Of a DNA stretch of 64,000 nt, positions 34,890-43,016 are shown one piece after another; the first letter of the stretch is position 1; each line of letters opens with the position of its first letter. A program made the position numbers and the translations under genes. Under the pieces are notes generated by a model that was given only the letters and a program-made list of their open reading frames with translations, did no database searches and was not told where the DNA came from. Origin of the DNA: Robiginitomaculum sp. (GTDB lineage Bacteria > Pseudomonadota > Alphaproteobacteria > Caulobacterales > Maricaulaceae); NCBI GenBank assembly GCA_002733905.1, contig NVXK01000003.1, positions 129,139 to 193,138 on the forward strand, given 5' to 3'.

Positions 34890-34909
34890 ACATAAACTCA
34901 AATGATGAG

Positions 34910-34943
34910 TATTAAAAAGGGCGCTATGTGGCGCCCTTTTTAA
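34910..34943. terminator. Strong bidirectional terminator between gshA and the receptor locus
   Basis: A perfect 13-bp stem (TTAAAAAGGGCGC, 34910-34922, with GCGCCCTTTTTAA, 34931-34943) has A and T runs built into its ends, so it can terminate both gshA from the left and the receptor cluster from the right. It marks the end of the five-gene minus-strand block. Confidence 0.9.
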
Positions 34944-34960
34944 TACGGTAAATATGCATT

Positions 34961-37066
34961 TTAAAATGTACCACTTAGATTGAATTTCACAGATGTTCCT
35001 TGACGTTGTGATAGAAATTCTGTGCGGTCAAATACGCCTATGTCACGTCTAGCTGTGTAATAAATGAGCGTGTTTTCATCAAGTGCATTCAAAATATTGT
35101 TAAGGTTTAAACGGGCCTTCATACCAAACACATCTTTGTGTTCAAGAAATACACCCGCTCTCGGCTTAGACCTTGTATTGTGGGAAATGGTCTCAAGACG
35201 ATAGGTAAGGGCGGTGTGGTGTTCGCCAATACTTCCGCCATAGGCCCATTTCGTTTGTGGAATATCGTGGCGAAATTTAACATTCCAATGATTTTTTTCG
35301 CCGCGACTAATATCACGGTTAAAGAAGAGCAGAGGGTCTTCAACGGAGGAATCGTGGAGGCCAACGGCTATATCCAATTGTGTACCGTCCGCACCCCATT
35401 GATCCCCTTTTAGGGTGGTTGAGATATGTGCGGCAATCGTATGTGCACTATCAATATTGCCAACAGCGTCCCCGTCTTCGCCCAGAGGAATACGGTCGAC
35501 AATATCGGAAATTTTACTCCCATTTATTCGAAATTTAAAACGGTTGCCATTACCAAGGTCTTTATCAAATTCAATTTGCCCATTCCATGATTGTTGAGGC
35601 ACAAGATTGGCATTACCTGTATTTTCTTCACCATCATCCAAGTTTACGGAGGAAAGAAAGTCGCCAAAATTAAGTTGGCCAACATCACGCGCAATTTTTG
35701 TACGAATTGAAAATGTAGAACTTGGTTTATAGCTCGAGCTGATAAAACCTTTGAGGCGGAAAAACTTACGCGATAATTCGCTTTGCAATAATTCTGAATA
35801 CTCCGCGCCGAGAGAAGATTGTATATCCAGTTTTGATGATAAATTACGGGTATAGCTCAGGGTTGTTTCTGCACGTTTTTCTTCAACGCGTGTCCGTAAA
35901 TTATCAAGATCAGGATCAATTTCATATTGAGCAGTGCTTAAATTCAAATCAAACAAACTCGCCGTATGATCTAATGAATTAAAAGCCCCTTCGACGTCAA
36001 ACTGCCAATTATTTTTACCACGATTTACCCATGAAAATTCGGAACGAAAAATGGCTTCGGCGCGATCTGTATTGCTGATATAGCGGCTACCCTCCGTATG
36101 GCTCACCGTGTCATATGTATTGAAATCAGAACGACTTGGCTTATGACTAAAGCTATAAAACCCAATGAGTTTCAATTTGCCAAAAAGGGCGGGCCTTTCG
36201 TAATCCGCGCCAATTTCCGTTTTCCAGTTATCACCACGCCGACCAGAGATCGCTTGGAGAGTACTCCCGCGTTCGGTGAGCGCGCTGCGGTGGGATACGC
36301 TATTTCTGGACAAATTCGATGTTTTATATTTGGCATTTAAACTTACAAGCTGATCTGTACGGGGTGCCCAAGACAGATCAACAGCGCCGATAAGGGCATT
36401 ACCCTTTACGTCCGTATCGCCATTACGAATTTCATATAACACGCCATCTTCATCTGTAAGGGCTTTGGTGGTGACATTACCGAAGCGAAAAGGATCGCTT
36501 TGCAGAGAGGCCGCGTAAGTAAGTGCGCCTGATTCGCCAGAGACGCTTATTTCGCCATCATATAAATTTGGTGCGCGGTGATTTCTAAATTGTGGATTCC
36601 ATGCCCATGTGCCTGTGACGCCCTGAGTATTGATGATAAGGTTGGCAACTTGACCAGTTAGCCCCGGAATATGCGCTGAGGCACCATCAATGATAATGAT
36701 TTCAATAATACTGGACGCCGGGATTCTTCCTAATTGCTCACGCGCACTGGTTTTACCAGAAATACGCGCCCCGTTAATCAAGACATTCGCACCACCTTGC
36801 CCAAGGCCACGCCTACGACCACGCCCACTTCGGAGGCCATATCCAGGGATACGGGAAAGCATATCGGTCGCAGTACGCGGCGCATATTGATGGAAATACG
36901 CAGGTGTGTAATGCGTTCCCGTGTTTTTTTGCGTGTAAGCTTGGTCGGCCTTTGCAATCGTAATATTTGTGGGATTTGGTACGGGCGTTTCAAGGGCCAG
37001 GGCTGTAACAGGGAGAAGCGTAACCGCCAGAAGGCTTAATGAAAATGTGTTGCTCATATTCTTCAC
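34961..37066 (-). CDS. TonB-dependent receptor (paralogue 1)
   Basis: This outer-membrane receptor of about 700 residues has a signal peptide ending near TALA (residue 25). The plug-like domain contains RTATDMLSRIPGYGLRSG and a short block GGANVLINGARISGK, then EIIIIDGASAHIPGL. A long alternating beta-barrel region follows and ends in phenylalanine (SGTF), as barrel proteins do for BAM recognition. No obvious TonB box was found. It is clearly paralogous to the next gene along its whole length, with the same blocks. The start may be GTG 37066 (GGGAG upstream) or ATG 37057. It is last in the minus-strand cluster. The ligand is unknown. Confidence 0.9.
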   Translation of the reverse strand: MKNMSNTFSLSLLAVTLLPVTALALETPVPNPTNITIAKADQAYTQKNTGTHYTPAYFHQYAPRTATDMLSRIPGYGLRSGRGRRRGLGQGGANVLINGARISGKTSAREQLGRIPASSIIEIIIIDGASAHIPGLTGQVANLIINTQGVTGTWAWNPQFRNHRAPNLYDGEISVSGESGALTYAASLQSDPFRFGNVTTKALTDEDGVLYEIRNGDTDVKGNALIGAVDLSWAPRTDQLVSLNAKYKTSNLSRNSVSHRSALTERGSTLQAISGRRGDNWKTEIGADYERPALFGKLKLIGFYSFSHKPSRSDFNTYDTVSHTEGSRYISNTDRAEAIFRSEFSWVNRGKNNWQFDVEGAFNSLDHTASLFDLNLSTAQYEIDPDLDNLRTRVEEKRAETTLSYTRNLSSKLDIQSSLGAEYSELLQSELSRKFFRLKGFISSSYKPSSTFSIRTKIARDVGQLNFGDFLSSVNLDDGEENTGNANLVPQQSWNGQIEFDKDLGNGNRFKFRINGSKISDIVDRIPLGEDGDAVGNIDSAHTIAAHISTTLKGDQWGADGTQLDIAVGLHDSSVEDPLLFFNRDISRGEKNHWNVKFRHDIPQTKWAYGGSIGEHHTALTYRLETISHNTRSKPRAGVFLEHKDVFGMKARLNLNNILNALDENTLIYYTARRDIGVFDRTEFLSQRQGTSVKFNLSGTF

Positions 37067-37230
37067 AGACTTATTCTCCCAAATTTCAGATATTCATATG
37101 GTTTCTTGCGCTGACACTTAATCGCTATTTGCGGTATAAGTTATTATCGTTTTTGTCCAGCTTCTATGAATATGCGCCCTTAAGGATAAGAGAATAAGGT
37201 CTGTAAATCACATTACGTTTTTGTCATGTT

Positions 37231-39303
37231 TTAAAACGTACCACTGACGCGAACACGCCCAATCAAACCAAAAGACTGTGACCGTTTTTCTGTGCGGTCG
37301 ACAATGCCTTTATCACGTCTGTCTGTGTAATAAATTTGGTAAAACTCATCGCTCATATCGAGTAAATTGCCAACAATTCCCCGAATTTTCATGCCATATA
37401 CATCCTTGTGCTCCACAAATATTTGCGAATAAGGTTTTGAACCTTTGCCATTACTAATCGTGCGGAGCCTATATGTCGGTGCCTCTGTATAGTTTTCGAT
37501 ATAGACACCATAGGCCCATTGTGTATTTGGAATGTCATGGCGAAGCTCTAGGCTCCAATTGGATATTGTATCGCTACTGAGGCGGCGTGTGAAACCAAGA
37601 AGCGGATCTTCAACACGTGAATTATACAGATTGAGTGTTGCGTCCAATTGTAGGCCTTTCATGCCCCATTGTTCACCTTTTAAGGTCGAGCTGAGCTCGA
37701 TCCCGTATTGTTGTGCACTGTCAATATTGCCAATAGCATCGCCATTTTCACCAATGGGAATACGGTCAACAAGGTCCGAAATTTGTTTCCCAAATATCAC
37801 GGCTTTGAACGAATTACCTTGGCCGAATGTTTTGTCAAATTCGATTTCCGCATTCCAGCTTTGTTGCGGTACAATGTTCGCATTACCCGTCTTGTTTTGG
37901 TTGTCGGTTAAACTTACGGATGAGAGAAAATCAAAAAAGTTTAGCTGCCCAACCTCCCGCTCCAGCTTTGTGCGAATGGTGAAGCTCGCGCTCGGTTTAT
38001 ATGTCGTTGTCACAAACCCTTTCGGTCTGAAAAAATTACGGGAATCATTTGCTTGGGAAAGACCAGAGTATTCTGCGCCTAAAGACGTTTGCACATCCCA
38101 TTTTTTTGATAGTTTGCGTGTATGGGTGATACTCACATCTACACGGTCTTCGTCTACACGTGTGCGTTTCTCCGTAAGGTTTGGGTTTGCAATATATTCG
38201 CCGTTCACCGTGTTCAAATTATAGAGCGTTGCCGTGTTTTCAAGAAAGTTAAATGCACCTTCAAGAGCGATTTGCCAATCACGCCCTTCTTTTTGGCTCC
38301 ATGAAAACTCGCTACGCAATATTGCCTCTGCTTCATCTGTAAGGCTGTGATAACGGCTACCGCTAGAATGAAAACCCAAGGGCGTATATTCGTCATACCG
38401 TGAGATATTGGGAGAGTGTTCAAAACGGTAATACCCAATGAGTTTTAATTTACCCATCAGTGCCGGAAATTCGTAATCGCCCCCAATTTCTGAATTCCAC
38501 TCGTCCTCCGCATGCGTGAAAAGTGTCTCCAAACCTGAACCCGTTTTATGCGAACTTGGCGCGTGAATAGGCGTGCGCTTTGATTGCTTGCGACTGTTAA
38601 AATTAAACTGGGTATAGGCTATGTTGAAATTGCCGATATGGTCGGTTTTAGGAGTCCACGTTAGATCAACAGCCCCCGTGACATTCTCGCCATAAAAAAT
38701 ATCTGCTTCGTGGCGCTTTTCAAACAAAACGCCATTAATGTCGGTCTGCCTTTCGGGGCCAACATGTCCATTTCTAAATGCGTCACTATCAAGGGACGCG
38801 GAATAGGATAAATTGCCAATTTCACCCGAGACGCTTACATCGCCGCGAAGCCAATTTGGTGCGATGTCTTTCCTAAATTCTGGATACCATTCCCATGTGC
38901 CCGTTACGCCTGTGCTCTTCGTGAAAACATTTGCGACCTGTCCTGACAGGCCAGGAATACCTAATGATGCACCATCGACAATTTCAATCCGTAAGACGCT
39001 TTTTGCCGAAATCCGAGATAATTGCGAATATGCATCGCTCTTGCCAGAGATGCGCGCGCCATTAATCAGCACATTGGCTCCGCCTTGCCCAAGACCCCGT
39101 TTGCCATCATCGCCACTATTAAACCGAAAACCGGGAATGCGCGAAATCATATCTATTGCTGTACGCGGCGCGTAATCATCGAAATATACAGCTTCATACA
39201 TTGTGCCGTCTGCCGCAGGTTTTTCGAGGGCATAAGCAGGGCTAAATGTGCAAAACGAGGATATAGCTACGCCGGCGAAAAGGGTTTTTGTGAGGTTGTT
39301 CAT
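37231..39303 (-). CDS. TonB-dependent receptor (paralogue 2)
   Basis: This outer-membrane receptor has 690 residues from ATG 39303, with a signal peptide ending near SPAYA. Blocks shared with its neighbour are RTAIDMISRIPGFRFNSG, GGANVLINGARISGK, a DGASLGIPGLSGQVAN stretch, QQSWNAEIEFDK with IVDRIPIGENGDA-like text, and a terminal SGTF. Identity between the two is high enough to see by eye across the barrel, indicating tandem duplication. A longer frame starting at 39408 overlaps the next gene and lacks a signal sequence at its start, so it is rejected. The 164-base gap to the other receptor gene contains no clear terminator. Confidence 0.9.
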   Translation of the reverse strand: MNNLTKTLFAGVAISSFCTFSPAYALEKPAADGTMYEAVYFDDYAPRTAIDMISRIPGFRFNSGDDGKRGLGQGGANVLINGARISGKSDAYSQLSRISAKSVLRIEIVDGASLGIPGLSGQVANVFTKSTGVTGTWEWYPEFRKDIAPNWLRGDVSVSGEIGNLSYSASLDSDAFRNGHVGPERQTDINGVLFEKRHEADIFYGENVTGAVDLTWTPKTDHIGNFNIAYTQFNFNSRKQSKRTPIHAPSSHKTGSGLETLFTHAEDEWNSEIGGDYEFPALMGKLKLIGYYRFEHSPNISRYDEYTPLGFHSSGSRYHSLTDEAEAILRSEFSWSQKEGRDWQIALEGAFNFLENTATLYNLNTVNGEYIANPNLTEKRTRVDEDRVDVSITHTRKLSKKWDVQTSLGAEYSGLSQANDSRNFFRPKGFVTTTYKPSASFTIRTKLEREVGQLNFFDFLSSVSLTDNQNKTGNANIVPQQSWNAEIEFDKTFGQGNSFKAVIFGKQISDLVDRIPIGENGDAIGNIDSAQQYGIELSSTLKGEQWGMKGLQLDATLNLYNSRVEDPLLGFTRRLSSDTISNWSLELRHDIPNTQWAYGVYIENYTEAPTYRLRTISNGKGSKPYSQIFVEHKDVYGMKIRGIVGNLLDMSDEFYQIYYTDRRDKGIVDRTEKRSQSFGLIGRVRVSGTF

Positions 39304-39349
39304 GATGTCTTTCTTGATCTGGTCTAGTTTAGTCTGATCTGGCGTGTCT

Positions 39350-39823
39350 TTAATGGGAGCTTGTCGTACTATGGGTATCCGAGATATAAAGCGTATGGTT
39401 TTTTTCATCCCAAGACGTATTTTCGATTTCGAGATGGTTGCCTTGAATAATGATCCGCTTTGTTTTATTCTGCGTGCCGAGTGTGCTCTTGAGTAAGCTC
39501 ATGTAACGGGTTTTTTGTGTGTTGATGATGGGCTTGCCATTGATGAGAATGTTATCGTCGACAAAATCCATTTCTACCTTGTCATTCGCGGTGGTCAGAT
39601 AACCATCTGCTTTGAGCAACAGAACAATCTGGTCTCGCATAGCAAGATATTTGTCACCCTGTTCATGCCTTTGTAGCATTTGAGAGTTTTGATTTTGCGT
39701 CGTCTGGGTTTTGTGAATGCAGTCCGTGTTGGTATTTGCGCTATGTGCTGCATATGCAAATCCAGAAAAATTAAGCGTAAATAATCCTAGCCCGCTCAAA
39801 AGCGAGATTTTAAAAATATTCAT
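39350..39823 (-). CDS. Small secreted protein, stand-alone copy of the M56 protease C-terminal domain
   Basis: This 157-residue protein has a signal peptide of about 25 residues (ending AYAA) and a short polar linker. Residues 61-136 form a domain that aligns with the last 85 or so residues of the adjacent M56 protease. Shared features in the same order are MRD, ADG(Y/F), N(D/E)KV, D, IN, KxxY, LG, R(I/V) and NT. Identity is roughly a quarter by eye, with almost no gaps. I do not know a named family for this domain. It sits between the protease gene and the two receptor genes on one strand, 46 bases from the next start. It may act as a periplasmic ligand, decoy or partner of the protease; that is inference. 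Confidence 0.75.
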   Translation of the reverse strand: MNIFKISLLSGLGLFTLNFSGFAYAAHSANTNTDCIHKTQTTQNQNSQMLQRHEQGDKYLAMRDQIVLLLKADGYLTTANDKVEMDFVDDNILINGKPIINTQKTRYMSLLKSTLGTQNKTKRIIIQGNHLEIENTSWDEKNHTLYISDTHSTTSSH

Positions 39824-39866
39824 AATGTCCTCTTTAAATTGGCCTCAACACGGCGCTTATTTTGGT

Positions 39867-39908
39867 GTTAGTTGTTAGTTGTTAGTTGTTAGTTGTTAGT
39901 TGTTAGTT
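39867..39908. repeat. Heptanucleotide tandem repeat, six copies
   Basis: Six perfect copies of GTTAGTT run from 39867 to 39908 and contain the stop codon of the M56 gene. On the coding strand all three frames meet TAA within the array, so changes in copy number would still stop translation. Confidence 0.9.
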
Positions 39909-42397
39909 GTATGTTCTATATGTTCGCCGTTAGACGTGCGGGTATAGTTTTGTTGTTCATGAGTATTGTCTATGCTGACATGAAGATAATCAGGTTTTAG
40001 TACAACGCGTTGTAAACCATCATGCGGATCGCCAAGATATTTATTAAGAATTTGGCAATATTTATCTTTGCGAGAATCTGAAATATGTACGCTATTAATG
40101 CTTACATATTCATCCGTTTTATCAATCACAACTTTTTCATTCTTGTTGCGGATAAAGCCGTCAGCAAGCAGGGCGGGGATAAGTTTGTCGCGCATTTTTT
40201 CATATTTCGCCGTTTCTTTATCTCGCTTATATTGTTCACGGTCTCTTTTCGCTTCGGCGCGTTCGAGACGTTCTGCGTTCCGCTCTTGTTGACGTTCTCT
40301 GATGTCTTGCGCCCGCTCGCGTTTTTCTTCAGCATATTCAAGTGCAAGCTCTCTGAGCTCTGCGGCGTGTTCACGTTGTTCTTGTGCATGTTCAAGGGCG
40401 TATTCACGTTGCTCTTGTGCATATGCAAGCTCTAGCTCTCTTAGCTCGGCTGCCAGCTCATATTGTGCTTCATCGTGTTCCCTGACGTCTGTTTGACGGG
40501 ATCTGCGTTCTTCAGATTCTTCTTCTGCCTGTTTTGCGGCCCACGCATCTTGATGCGCCTCATGTTCACTTTCCCATGCGGCTTGTCTTTTTGCATTTTC
40601 TTTTTGCCACTTGCGTTGCTTTTTTTGAAACTCTTTTGTGCGTTCTTTTTGTTCTTGTTTCCATTCAACTTGCTTTTGCTTCATTTCACGTTGACGTTCA
40701 GCATGTTCTTCTTGCCATTCACGGGCAATGATAAATTCAGTTGTGCTGTGAGGTTTTTGTATCGCGGGAGTATGTGCTGGTATTGTAGGGAATTGCGGCA
40801 CAACGGGCTGTGTGGCCTGAACGGTGTCAAATGCAGTTTCAACGCTGACGATAGGTGATTGAGGGGGCAGAGCTGGTGTAATGTTGAACTCTGGTTTTTC
40901 AGCCGCGTTAAACCAATTCCCATCAATTTGAATAAAAGTATTGTTTAGACGACTGGTCTTTATCGCATAGGTTTTCGCATTTTTTGTCAAGAAGGAATAG
41001 ATATATCCATCATGTAAAGGCGTGCCTTTATCATAATCATTATTGGTTTTGATATAGAATTTATTGTTTTTGATTTTGAAATTGTCACCTTGAATACCAA
41101 TTGTCTTTTTGCCATTTTGCACTGAAATATCATTGTCAGACGCGAGGTATTTTTTACCATTCTTGATTTTATACACTTGCCCATTCTTAAGTATGAACTG
41201 TGTGGATTTATTTTTATGCTTACTTTTTTTGTTCTTTTTCTTTTTTCTTTTTTCTTTACCTTTGGCGCCTGCGAGTTCACTGTCTTGCACTAAAACTGGC
41301 GCGACAGTGTTTAAAGCTTGTGCCTGACTTTGTGTTGCGCCCAAGGCGACAACCAAGCCACTTGCGATGATCATCATGCCTGTGGCCGCAAAACCACCCG
41401 CTGTGCCGTTCGCACGTAGCCCATTTGTCGGCGCACCAACGAGGCGTTTCAGGCGGTGCATAATCGGCGCGTCTGGTCCGCCTGAGCCACTGACGCCAAG
41501 AATGCCGACTTGCGCATAGACAACACCTGCATTGCGCGCCGCTTTGATACGTATAGTGCCAAGGGCGATGGCAAGATGTTCTGGGTTACGTGTCAATTTG
41601 ACGGCGAAATCATCACACGCATGTTCGCGGTCTGTATTTATATTATCGCAAATATAGCGCACTGCTGGATGATAGAAGAAAACAGTTTTGATAATGATTT
41701 GAAAAATATTGGTGAGATAATCATGACGGCGAATGTGAGCGAGCTCGTGCAAAAGCACCGCTTCACATTGCTCTGTCGTCATGCCGGTAAAGAACCATGC
41801 AGGCACAAGAACAATGGGTTTAAAAAAACCAAAGGTCACGGGGCTTGCAACATGCTCCGAGATAAAACACCGGACTTTGTCGTTCACACCAGATTGTTTT
41901 GCAAGCGCGATAAATCGTGCATTCCAGTTAATCATGCCATTTGAAGGGATTGGTGATGTGCCCGTAGTCCGAAGTTTATGCGTGAGGCGGAAAGCCGCCA
42001 AATAACGTACAGACAAAACGGTAAAGCATAATGCCCATAAAATGCCGATAATATCTGTGTAATGCGTAATATGAAGAAGGGGATTAAGAGGCGCGGCCAA
42101 GAGAGCACCTGTCGCTTCATTTATCGCTTCAATTGTAATCGTGCGCGTCGGGACTTGCGCCAAGGCAAGAGCGCTCGCGCCAATATTGAAATAATACAAA
42201 AACGTACCGATAAAGGCTGCGAATAATGCGCTTAAGACAACCATGCCAGCCATATAGCGTGTATCGGCAGCGCTTTCCTTTGTAACGGCACGCAGTGTCC
42301 AAACGGCTAAGCCTGCGAGCGCACCCTGCCATAAAGAATGTAAGACGGCCCAACCAAGAGCGTCAACAATAAGTGTCGGGTTTGGAAGAAAACTCAT
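39896..42397 (-). CDS. BlaR1-like M56 membrane metalloprotease with novel C-terminal sensor architecture
   Basis: This 833-residue protein appears to be a signal-transducing protease. Residues 1-370 hold four to five membrane helices with the M56 zinc site HELAH at 217-221 and REHACDDFAV further on, as in BlaR1/MecR1. After the last helix come a lysine-rich run (about 382-395) and a region of short beta-like repeats (NGQVYKIKNGKKYL type, to about 495). A proline-rich linker follows, then a highly charged helix of about 180 residues (555-735) full of Q, E, R, K and A, and a final domain at 735-820. No penicillin-binding domain is present, so beta-lactam sensing is not indicated. The start overlaps the repressor gene by four bases. 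The expected action is cleavage of that repressor upon a periplasmic signal. Confidence 0.88.
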   Translation of the reverse strand: MSFLPNPTLIVDALGWAVLHSLWQGALAGLAVWTLRAVTKESAADTRYMAGMVVLSALFAAFIGTFLYYFNIGASALALAQVPTRTITIEAINEATGALLAAPLNPLLHITHYTDIIGILWALCFTVLSVRYLAAFRLTHKLRTTGTSPIPSNGMINWNARFIALAKQSGVNDKVRCFISEHVASPVTFGFFKPIVLVPAWFFTGMTTEQCEAVLLHELAHIRRHDYLTNIFQIIIKTVFFYHPAVRYICDNINTDREHACDDFAVKLTRNPEHLAIALGTIRIKAARNAGVVYAQVGILGVSGSGGPDAPIMHRLKRLVGAPTNGLRANGTAGGFAATGMMIIASGLVVALGATQSQAQALNTVAPVLVQDSELAGAKGKEKRKKKKNKKSKHKNKSTQFILKNGQVYKIKNGKKYLASDNDISVQNGKKTIGIQGDNFKIKNNKFYIKTNNDYDKGTPLHDGYIYSFLTKNAKTYAIKTSRLNNTFIQIDGNWFNAAEKPEFNITPALPPQSPIVSVETAFDTVQATQPVVPQFPTIPAHTPAIQKPHSTTEFIIAREWQEEHAERQREMKQKQVEWKQEQKERTKEFQKKQRKWQKENAKRQAAWESEHEAHQDAWAAKQAEEESEERRSRQTDVREHDEAQYELAAELRELELAYAQEQREYALEHAQEQREHAAELRELALEYAEEKRERAQDIRERQQERNAERLERAEAKRDREQYKRDKETAKYEKMRDKLIPALLADGFIRNKNEKVVIDKTDEYVSINSVHISDSRKDKYCQILNKYLGDPHDGLQRVVLKPDYLHVSIDNTHEQQNYTRTSNGEHIEHTTNN

Positions 42398-42819
42398 GAG
42401 CTTTCCCCCGTATTCGTATTGCCTTCATTCGCATTGCCTTCGATTTGGCTAATGAAAGCTTTGATGGCATCTAAATCTTCAGATGATGTTTTTGAATCCC
42501 CAAGCGCGTGCATAACAAGTTCATTCACATCACCGCGAAAGGCCGACTTTAAAAGCTGCCCTAAAAGTTTGCTTTGCGTTGCATGTGCGGTTTCAGACGC
42601 TGAATAGTCATATGACTTGCCTTTACCCTTTGAACGGACAACGAGACCTTTCGCCAGCATGCGCTGTAATTGTTTAAGTATGGTCGTATACCCAACCGAC
42701 TTAAAACGCGCGATCTCTTCGTGTACTGCATGCACACTACAGGGCTGTTTCTCCCAGAGGATTTGCAGTATTTCTACTTCAGCTTCTGATGGTTTCTTGT
42801 CGGTGTGTTGGTCAGGCAT
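42394..42819 (-). CDS. BlaI/MecI/CopY-family transcriptional repressor
   Basis: This 141-residue winged-helix repressor has the family pattern SEAEVEILQILWEKQPCSVHAVHEEI and GYTTILKQLQRMLAKGLVVRSKG-type recognition helix and wing. A C-terminal dimerisation part carries the site normally cleaved by the partner protease. A tail rich in N, E and G closes it. The ATG at 42819 has GAGGAACC just before it; the frame extends 33 codons further, through the putative operators, without family similarity. It is first in the cluster and overlaps the M56 gene by an ATGA junction. Two ACGACA-type dyads lie 36-80 bases upstream, consistent with autoregulation. Confidence 0.93.
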   Translation of the reverse strand: MPDQHTDKKPSEAEVEILQILWEKQPCSVHAVHEEIARFKSVGYTTILKQLQRMLAKGLVVRSKGKGKSYDYSASETAHATQSKLLGQLLKSAFRGDVNELVMHALGDSKTSSEDLDAIKAFISQIEGNANEGNTNTGESS

Positions 42820-42854
42820 AATGGTTCCTCGTCGAATTACAAAAAAATCTATAA

Positions 42855-42868
42855 ACGACAAGTGTCGT
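42855..42868. promoter_or_regulatory. Putative repressor operator 1
   Basis: A perfect dyad ACGACA-AG-TGTCGT. The inner ACA-N2-TGT matches the core bound by CopY/BlaI-type repressors. It stands 36 bases upstream of the repressor start codon, where a bound dimer would block transcription. Confidence 0.65.
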
Positions 42869-42885
42869 ATCGTAAAGTTAAAAAA

Positions 42886-42899
42886 ACGACATGTTTCGT
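42886..42899. promoter_or_regulatory. Putative repressor operator 2
   Basis: A second dyad ACGACA-TG-TTTCGT, with one mismatch in the right arm. Its centre is 31 bases from that of operator 1, close to three helical turns, so two dimers would lie on the same DNA face. Confidence 0.55.
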
Positions 42900-43016
42900 A
42901 ATGCGAGGAAAAATCCACCTTTTTCCAAAAAACACTTGAGAAAACCCATCAGACAGTGTTGTTTGGCGCGGATACTATAAAGTAATTATAACTAAGACTA
43001 ATTTAGGGGAGTAACT

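Follow-up and report, generated by a model that had tools for sequence, protein, structure and literature searches.

A BlaI-M56 operon with TonB-dependent receptor genes and a conserved operator, possibly directing an envelope response in one alphaproteobacterial family

BlaI/M56-type pairs of repressor and membrane protease are best known for sensing penicillin. What might such a pair sense, and what might it control, when it stands at the head of an operon for two TonB-dependent receptors (TBDRs)? We examined a locus of this kind in a window of 64,000 nucleotides from Robiginitomaculum sp. (contig NVXK01000003.1), the window being the whole stretch of DNA analysed. All five of its ORFs are called on the minus strand, in the order BlaI repressor, M56 protease, 157-aa protein, TBDR-A and TBDR-B, and they end at a strong hairpin, just as an earlier note made from the sequence alone had described them. 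The ATGA overlap of repressor and protease given in that note was read at 42394-42397, and, of the operator-like dyads that it had placed at the front of the locus, two lie before BlaI at 42855-42868 and 42886-42899. The strong bidirectional terminator that it had proposed is borne out as a hairpin: a folding energy of -25.3 kcal/mol (z -9.2) is obtained for about 34909-34946, a value matched by none of 200 shuffles. This hairpin stands convergent with the GCS2 gene and is missing from the output of a simple terminator scan; promoter and terminator scans of the region returned site numbers no higher than in shuffles. The features of the locus are as follows.

34909..34946, minus strand: terminator-like hairpin (both directions) flanked by A and T runs, from folding against shuffles
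34961..37066, minus strand: TBDR-B, 701 aa, GTG start; Plug at 22.4 bits, 1.5 below the cut-off of 23.9
37231..39303, minus strand: TBDR-A, 690 aa from an internal ATG; Plug (PF07715) at 26.9 bits against a cut-off of 23.9
39350..39823, minus strand: 157-aa protein, a stand-alone copy of the M56 C-terminal domain by homology to the M56 C-terminus
39896..42397, minus strand: M56 membrane protease, 833 aa; PF05569, E 2.5e-30, 106.1 bits against a cut-off of 31
39899..40243, minus strand: C-terminal domain of the M56 protein, residues 719-833, from homology and a structure model
40208..40735 (bounds approximate), minus strand: E/R/K/A/Q-rich predicted coiled coil of the M56 protein, from the alignment, the coiled coil judged by eye
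41321..41404, minus strand: last hydrophobic segment of the M56 protein, residues 332-359, from a Kyte-Doolittle plot
41735..41749, minus strand: HELAH zinc motif of the M56 protease, a sequence motif
42394..42819, minus strand: BlaI/MecI-type repressor, 141 aa; PF03965, E 7e-23, 81.6 bits against a cut-off of 22.6
42855..42868, minus strand: predicted operator O2, ACGACACTTGTCGT, proximal to blaI, with the exact core in 20 of 20 operons
42886..42899, minus strand: predicted operator O1, ACGAAACATGTCGT, 31 bp upstream of O2, a recognisable second copy being present in 13 of 19 operons

The repressor, which starts at the ATG at 42819 in a frame that stays open to a GTG at 42918, belongs to the BlaI/MecI family by its match to Penicillinase_R (PF03965) over the curated cut-off, and the protease to the M56 peptidases by a PF05569 domain over its cut-off together with HExxH; residues 116-268 of the latter match solved BlaR1 sequences (E 1e-8). 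Between the two receptors identity is 53%, and TBDR-A has the Plug domain of TonB-dependent receptors above the cut-off. The internal ATG at 39303 is the probable start of TBDR-A, because translation from 39408 would run into the 157-aa gene, and TBDR-B might have a promoter of its own because its GTG start comes after a gap of 164 bp. A perfect 7-bp tandem repeat of 6.4 copies (39866-39910) runs across the M56 stop codon and the gap to the 157-aa gene. The locus thus resembles the BlaI-BlaR1 and MecI-MecR1 systems of S. aureus and B. licheniformis in its repressor family, the adjoining HExxH-bearing M56 protein, the dyads in its own promoter and likely autoregulation, the ATGA overlap being a feature of the window locus in this comparison (for BlaR1/BlaI signalling, see passages of PMC7593790). 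The best matches listed from open-licence PubMed Central papers contained no description of this gene set. As sources on BlaI we set aside PMC12864828, where the matches in the passages concerned are author names such as Blair, and PMC12578637, whose passages hold no BlaI system and where M56 is the start of a catalogue number.

Whether these genes belong together was addressed in relatives, the genomes being cited below by our own numbers (the window genome is G000). Within a first set of 61 genomes, made up of the window genome and 60 relatives, the receptor is detected at E<=1e-10 in 53. At E<=1e-5, M56 is matched in 43, with other M56 proteins accounting for many of the matches; BlaI is found at E<=1e-8 in 21, with at least 44% identity in 14 and 25-32% in the remainder. 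All 14 of these BlaI orthologs adjoin an M56 gene and, contig permitting, the receptor. The gene order in G005 and G009 had to be pieced together because each operon is split over two contigs, and the contig of G013 ends inside the receptor. Locating relatives by the M56 protein in genome contigs returned one irrelevant Clostridium locus. When 299 genomes of the order were searched with a 14-row profile built on the C-terminal domain of M56, 13 gave a match, 13 of 13 in such an operon: eight were already known, and the five new ones, from another genus, all have BlaI-M56-TBDR with the predicted operator before BlaI. G061, unmatched by the domain profile, was entered as a presumed negative control, and its double operator revealed an operon. 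Six operons were therefore recovered after the pattern had been fixed, five through the M56 C-terminal domain and G061 through the operator. The BlaI-M56-TBDR core is thus found in 20 genomes of one family, the window genome included, across five genera, bearing out the conserved linkage of BlaI, M56 and receptor expected by the earlier note. That note had proposed looking for co-occurrence of the M56 protein, the 157-residue protein and the receptor, and here the outcome is divided: the three-gene linkage is conserved in the 20 operons, but the 157-aa gene is found in one of them, that of the window genome. In the 19 others, the gap between M56 and receptor does not exceed about 115 bp for the first-found set and is similarly small for the six found later, which leaves no room for the 157-aa gene, and we reject it as a conserved part of the operon.

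The second element that the operons share is their predicted operator. The exact core ACGAC-N4-GTCGT stands before BlaI in all 20, in keeping with the dyads that BlaI-family repressors have in their own promoters, and a recognisable second copy lies 28-31 bp away in 13 of the 19 operons examined for it (9/13 and 4/6). In the window alone there are four matches at up to one mismatch, a number within chance since at least four also occur in 17 of 100 shuffles; the significance of the dyads derives from their conservation in relatives and not from the statistics of the window. Searched as an exact pattern, ACGACNNNTGTCGT occurs at 32 places in the 11 operon genomes of the genus, where the reversed control has 5 hits, and at 17 places in 26 other genomes, where the control has 35. 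The 32 places comprise 11 operons, 10 psp-type DUF2807 loci, two sites before other secreted-protein genes (G011), one before an amidase gene (window genome), one (G012) some 110 bp ahead of a gene, and seven that are unexplained, of which one (G013:C220) was inspected. Matches inside ORFs or coding sequence (G041, G045, G124:C4, G062:C2 and the same G013:C220) were taken as chance, and single exact sites in G021 and G144 have no BlaI, M56, TBDR or DUF2807 match within the 10 kb fetched. Conservation reaches 98% in the arms of the operator, compared with 47% in distant flanks and with 75% and 58% in the bases next to it; the value for the arms is in part built in, because the motif itself was used to find most sites.

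Operator-like sites in the window genome lie at G000:C8:28288 (L174), before an amidase gene, and at G000:C37:72029 (L176), before a gene for an FG-GAP repeat protein. The same genome has five BlaI-M56 pairs in total; the other four BlaI genes have different promoter dyads (by eye), and the fetched flanks of these four pairs contain no such TBDR. Two of them (L107 and L108) have proteases with added domains: an M56 with ankyrin repeats and M23, and an M56 with a TonB C-terminal domain. Close to the BlaI-type operator in several of the promoters considered (L168, L187, L272, L273, L274, L276, L278, L279 and L280), we saw by eye a second, variable dyad of about TTATCG-N5-CGATAA, which perhaps serves another regulator.

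A recurrent place of the predicted operator outside the operon is a psp-type locus with the layout pspF|pspA-pspB-pspC, a small ORF, and one or two DUF2807 ('Toastrack') genes. Passages of PMC11237479 unify DUF2807, DUF4097 and DUF2154 as Toastrack and link it to PSP; our case resembles the PSP/Lia systems with Toastrack described there in that the recurrent predicted target is the DUF2807 gene next to pspABC. Among the best 30 DUF2807 loci, the operator precedes the DUF2807 part in 11 of the 12 psp-type loci from the genus and in none of the 18 loci from other genera. The sites of G010 and G012 are off consensus, with one base off in an arm (in one genome, one in each form of the pattern). 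By matrix score, the same-genus operator sites reach 15.6-25.3 against 9.5 for the best of the 18 other-genus loci; random sequence of slightly different background yields a score of at least 15 about 3.5 times, and of at least 20 about 0.2 times, per 3.5 Mb. Homologs of psp genes beside the DUF2807 gene were confirmed in 11 of the 12 same-genus loci, the contig of G005 ending before them, and the window genome has a PSP/Toastrack locus with PF04012, PF04024, PF00158, PF10988 and PF06667 all over their cut-offs. At 10 of 11 psp-DUF2807 sites, a TTGAC hexamer 8-10 bases before the operator is the best promoter-like match, and in the window genome a secreted-looking ORF of 83 aa lies between the operator and the DUF2807 gene. 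Further DUF2807 genes carry the operator in G031, G061, G124, G134, G189 and G267, where the fetched stretches contain no psp homolog, which brings the operon genomes with the operator before a gene of this family to 15 of 20; no exact operator was seen at such a gene in the remaining five (G011, G013, G024, G030 and G062), and the psp-DUF2807 locus present in G011 is without one.

Other operators precede UrcA-family genes (NCBIfam TIGR04433), near greA in G011, G124 and G189 (greA identity tested by Pfam for G124 alone) and elsewhere in G031, as well as a third set of small secreted proteins, alike by eye and without a Pfam match over cut-off, in G011, G024 and G031. The DUF2807 proteins have signal peptides by eye, whereas passages of PMC11237479 predict an intracellular Toastrack; the regulators named there are PspF, LiaRS, HAAS-PadR and more, and neither BlaI nor M56 occurs in its main text. 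Since the operator precedes the psp-linked DUF2807 gene and other genes for secreted proteins, which the earlier note had missed, the regulon is likely to be one of envelope genes and to extend beyond the two receptors. The main anomaly is G003 (98% complete), where the operator is kept at the psp-linked DUF2807 gene (L162) and no BlaI ortholog, M56, TBDR or neighbouring POT gene was found; one of the searches behind this had no positive control. In G010 (83% complete) a one-mismatch operator and a TBDR share a short contig, and no BlaI or M56 was found; several of the compared genomes are incomplete drafts.

Plug was matched at E<=0.01 by 24 of 25 members of the receptor family, whose profile matches CirA and BtuB over the N-terminal, plug-side part; barrel models match 6 and 8 of the 25, the first window member not among them, and structure prediction of the TBDR pair gave a pLDDT of 29, too low for use. 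A tree of 50 receptors, from which proteins below 550 aa (including the contig-cut receptor of G189) and distant matches were left out, groups 28 of its 30 operon-linked members in a single clade with a support of 0.97. Two other receptors complete this clade of 30, those of G010, whose contig is too short to tell, and G021, which is without a BlaI-M56 pair. Receptors without BlaI-M56 sit between POT and GCS2 in G014, G018, G021, G024, G030 and G032 and near POT in G016, G017, G022, G023 and G029; no POT was seen beside the receptor in G025, G035, G036 and G040. From this occurrence and the pattern of the tree, the receptor family seems older than its predicted control by BlaI-M56.

One might alternatively read the TBDR and the divergent POT as a peptide-uptake module in which BlaI-M56 tunes the receptor to its substrate, with DUF2807 and UrcA incidental or aids to uptake. 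Many members of the window's family, whether or not they have BlaI-M56, do have a POT gene next to the TBDR or within a few kb of it, and in the tree the POT-site TBDRs are joined by the first TBDR of G021 and by the second ones of G001 and G011. We nonetheless find this nutrient control rather unlikely: G024 and G030 have the operon elsewhere than at the POT site, a psp-linked gene repeatedly carries the operator, the TBDRs have no matched STN domain, and relatives of the TBDR stand in a cell-wall gene cluster of another family. In that other family of the order, ddl and murB of the division/cell-wall cluster adjoin the receptor homolog or lie close to it at all five loci fetched (L085, L086, L088, L089 and L090), a sixth genome (G045) having no receptor match, and in one further family the receptor is near a polysaccharide deacetylase gene in three of four fetched loci; one example each of ddl, murB and the deacetylase gene was checked by Pfam. 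On the strength of the POT and cell-wall neighbourhoods together, we propose peptides or peptidoglycan fragments as cargo.

The M56 protein points to where a signal might be read. Its HExxH is intact in 19 of 19 sequences covering the site, and DREx[AS]CDD in 20 of 20. The predicted periplasmic half begins after the last hydrophobic segment, and this tail of about 474 residues has, in the alignment of relatives, the order of variable repeats, a charged coiled-coil-like stretch of varying length and the C-terminal domain. A model of this domain, built from an alignment of two window sequences and of moderate confidence (pLDDT 73.9, pTM 0.69), predicts a long helix followed by beta-beta-alpha-beta-beta-beta. 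Foldseek and HMMER found no significant structural relative of it in the PDB; the best Foldseek match, a pilin-MBP fusion at E 0.04, was taken as chance. An M23 domain ends three of the 19 M56 proteins searched (G024, G030 and G267). Such fusions, annotated as M23/M56 family metallopeptidases, also include another M56 of the window genome; the M56 protein of the window locus, in contrast, is without M23. In place of the penicillin-binding sensor of BlaR1, the window protein has a coiled-coil-like tail and a small C-terminal domain, followed by M23 in the three relatives.

A diverged beta-lactam sensor, working like BlaR1 through an unrecognised sensor domain, is very unlikely. The BlaI and M56 families are indeed those of the BlaR1 pair, but the M56 protein has no penicillin-binding, transpeptidase or beta-lactamase domain by Pfam at E<=1, NCBIfam blaR1_generic matches its residues 40-277 only (75.5 bits against a cut-off of 400), leaving the NCBIfam BlaR1 cut-offs unreached, and none of the five genes encodes a beta-lactamase. 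We thus agree with the earlier note that the pair lacks a penicillin-binding sensor, such as BlaR1/MecR1 have at the C-terminus. The 157-aa protein looks secreted, its signal peptide being recognised by eye. Pfam gives nothing for it at E<=1, but it is 29% identical to the M56 C-terminal domain over 103 columns (E 3e-13); this free copy in the window genome may tune the sensor.

That an autoregulated BlaI-M56 pair simply has receptor genes downstream by chance, without regulatory meaning, we regard as scarcely credible: the TBDR also occurs at the POT-GCS2 site without BlaI-M56, so that the association looks younger than the receptor, but it recurs in 20 genomes of five genera at more than one chromosomal site, and the operon-linked receptors fall almost entirely into the single clade described above. 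FecA-FecR-type systems relay a signal from a TonB-dependent receptor through a membrane-spanning regulator. Our locus is similar in tying outer-membrane receptor genes to a membrane-spanning regulatory relay, but FecA-type signalling was rejected as neither the window receptors nor the family members have a matched STN domain, and the five genes include no sigma or anti-sigma family.

We consider it probable that a BlaR1-type relay has been turned at this locus to envelope homeostasis in a Gram-negative setting, responding to an envelope and probably a cell-wall signal. The operon and its operator are well supported, and all regulation is inferred from sequence. BlaI dimers would sit on the operators within the core promoters. 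The M56 tail would read a change in the periplasm, most likely one that affects peptidoglycan or the outer membrane, upon which the M56 domain would cut BlaI. Removal of BlaI would then permit expression of the operon itself (positive feedback), of the psp-linked DUF2807 gene and of other envelope genes, and the TBDRs would probably aid envelope recovery or recapture material set free, for instance peptides or fragments of peptidoglycan. Such a relay would put out outer-membrane and secreted proteins, as opposed to the beta-lactamase or PBP2a of the BlaI-BlaR1 systems. For Bacillus, PMC3305447 reports a peptidoglycan dipeptide that destabilises the BlaI-DNA complex and releases BlaI. The interpretation of the earlier note, in which a pair lacking a penicillin-binding sensor senses an envelope or nutrient signal and sets receptor levels, thus survives in the absence of that domain and in the conserved linkage and operators, and fails for the 157-aa protein, which is not conserved.

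More tentatively, with a confidence that falls a little short of even, we posit an undescribed Gram-negative envelope-stress response, found as far as seen in one family, in which M56 would read the cell wall via the coiled coil together with a C-terminal domain of a new kind, to which M23 is attached in some cases, and would remove BlaI to turn on TBDRs, the psp-linked Toastrack and UrcA, the sensor domain being duplicated in the window genome as a free, secreted adjuster. If this is true, TBDR and psp-linked Toastrack genes would gain a kind of regulator not met in the literature searched. BlaI-M56 pairs are common and yet chiefly familiar from beta-lactam resistance. Because the pair described here has a defined operator, few predicted targets and a region that is a candidate for sensing, the signal of such orphan Gram-negative pairs becomes directly testable.
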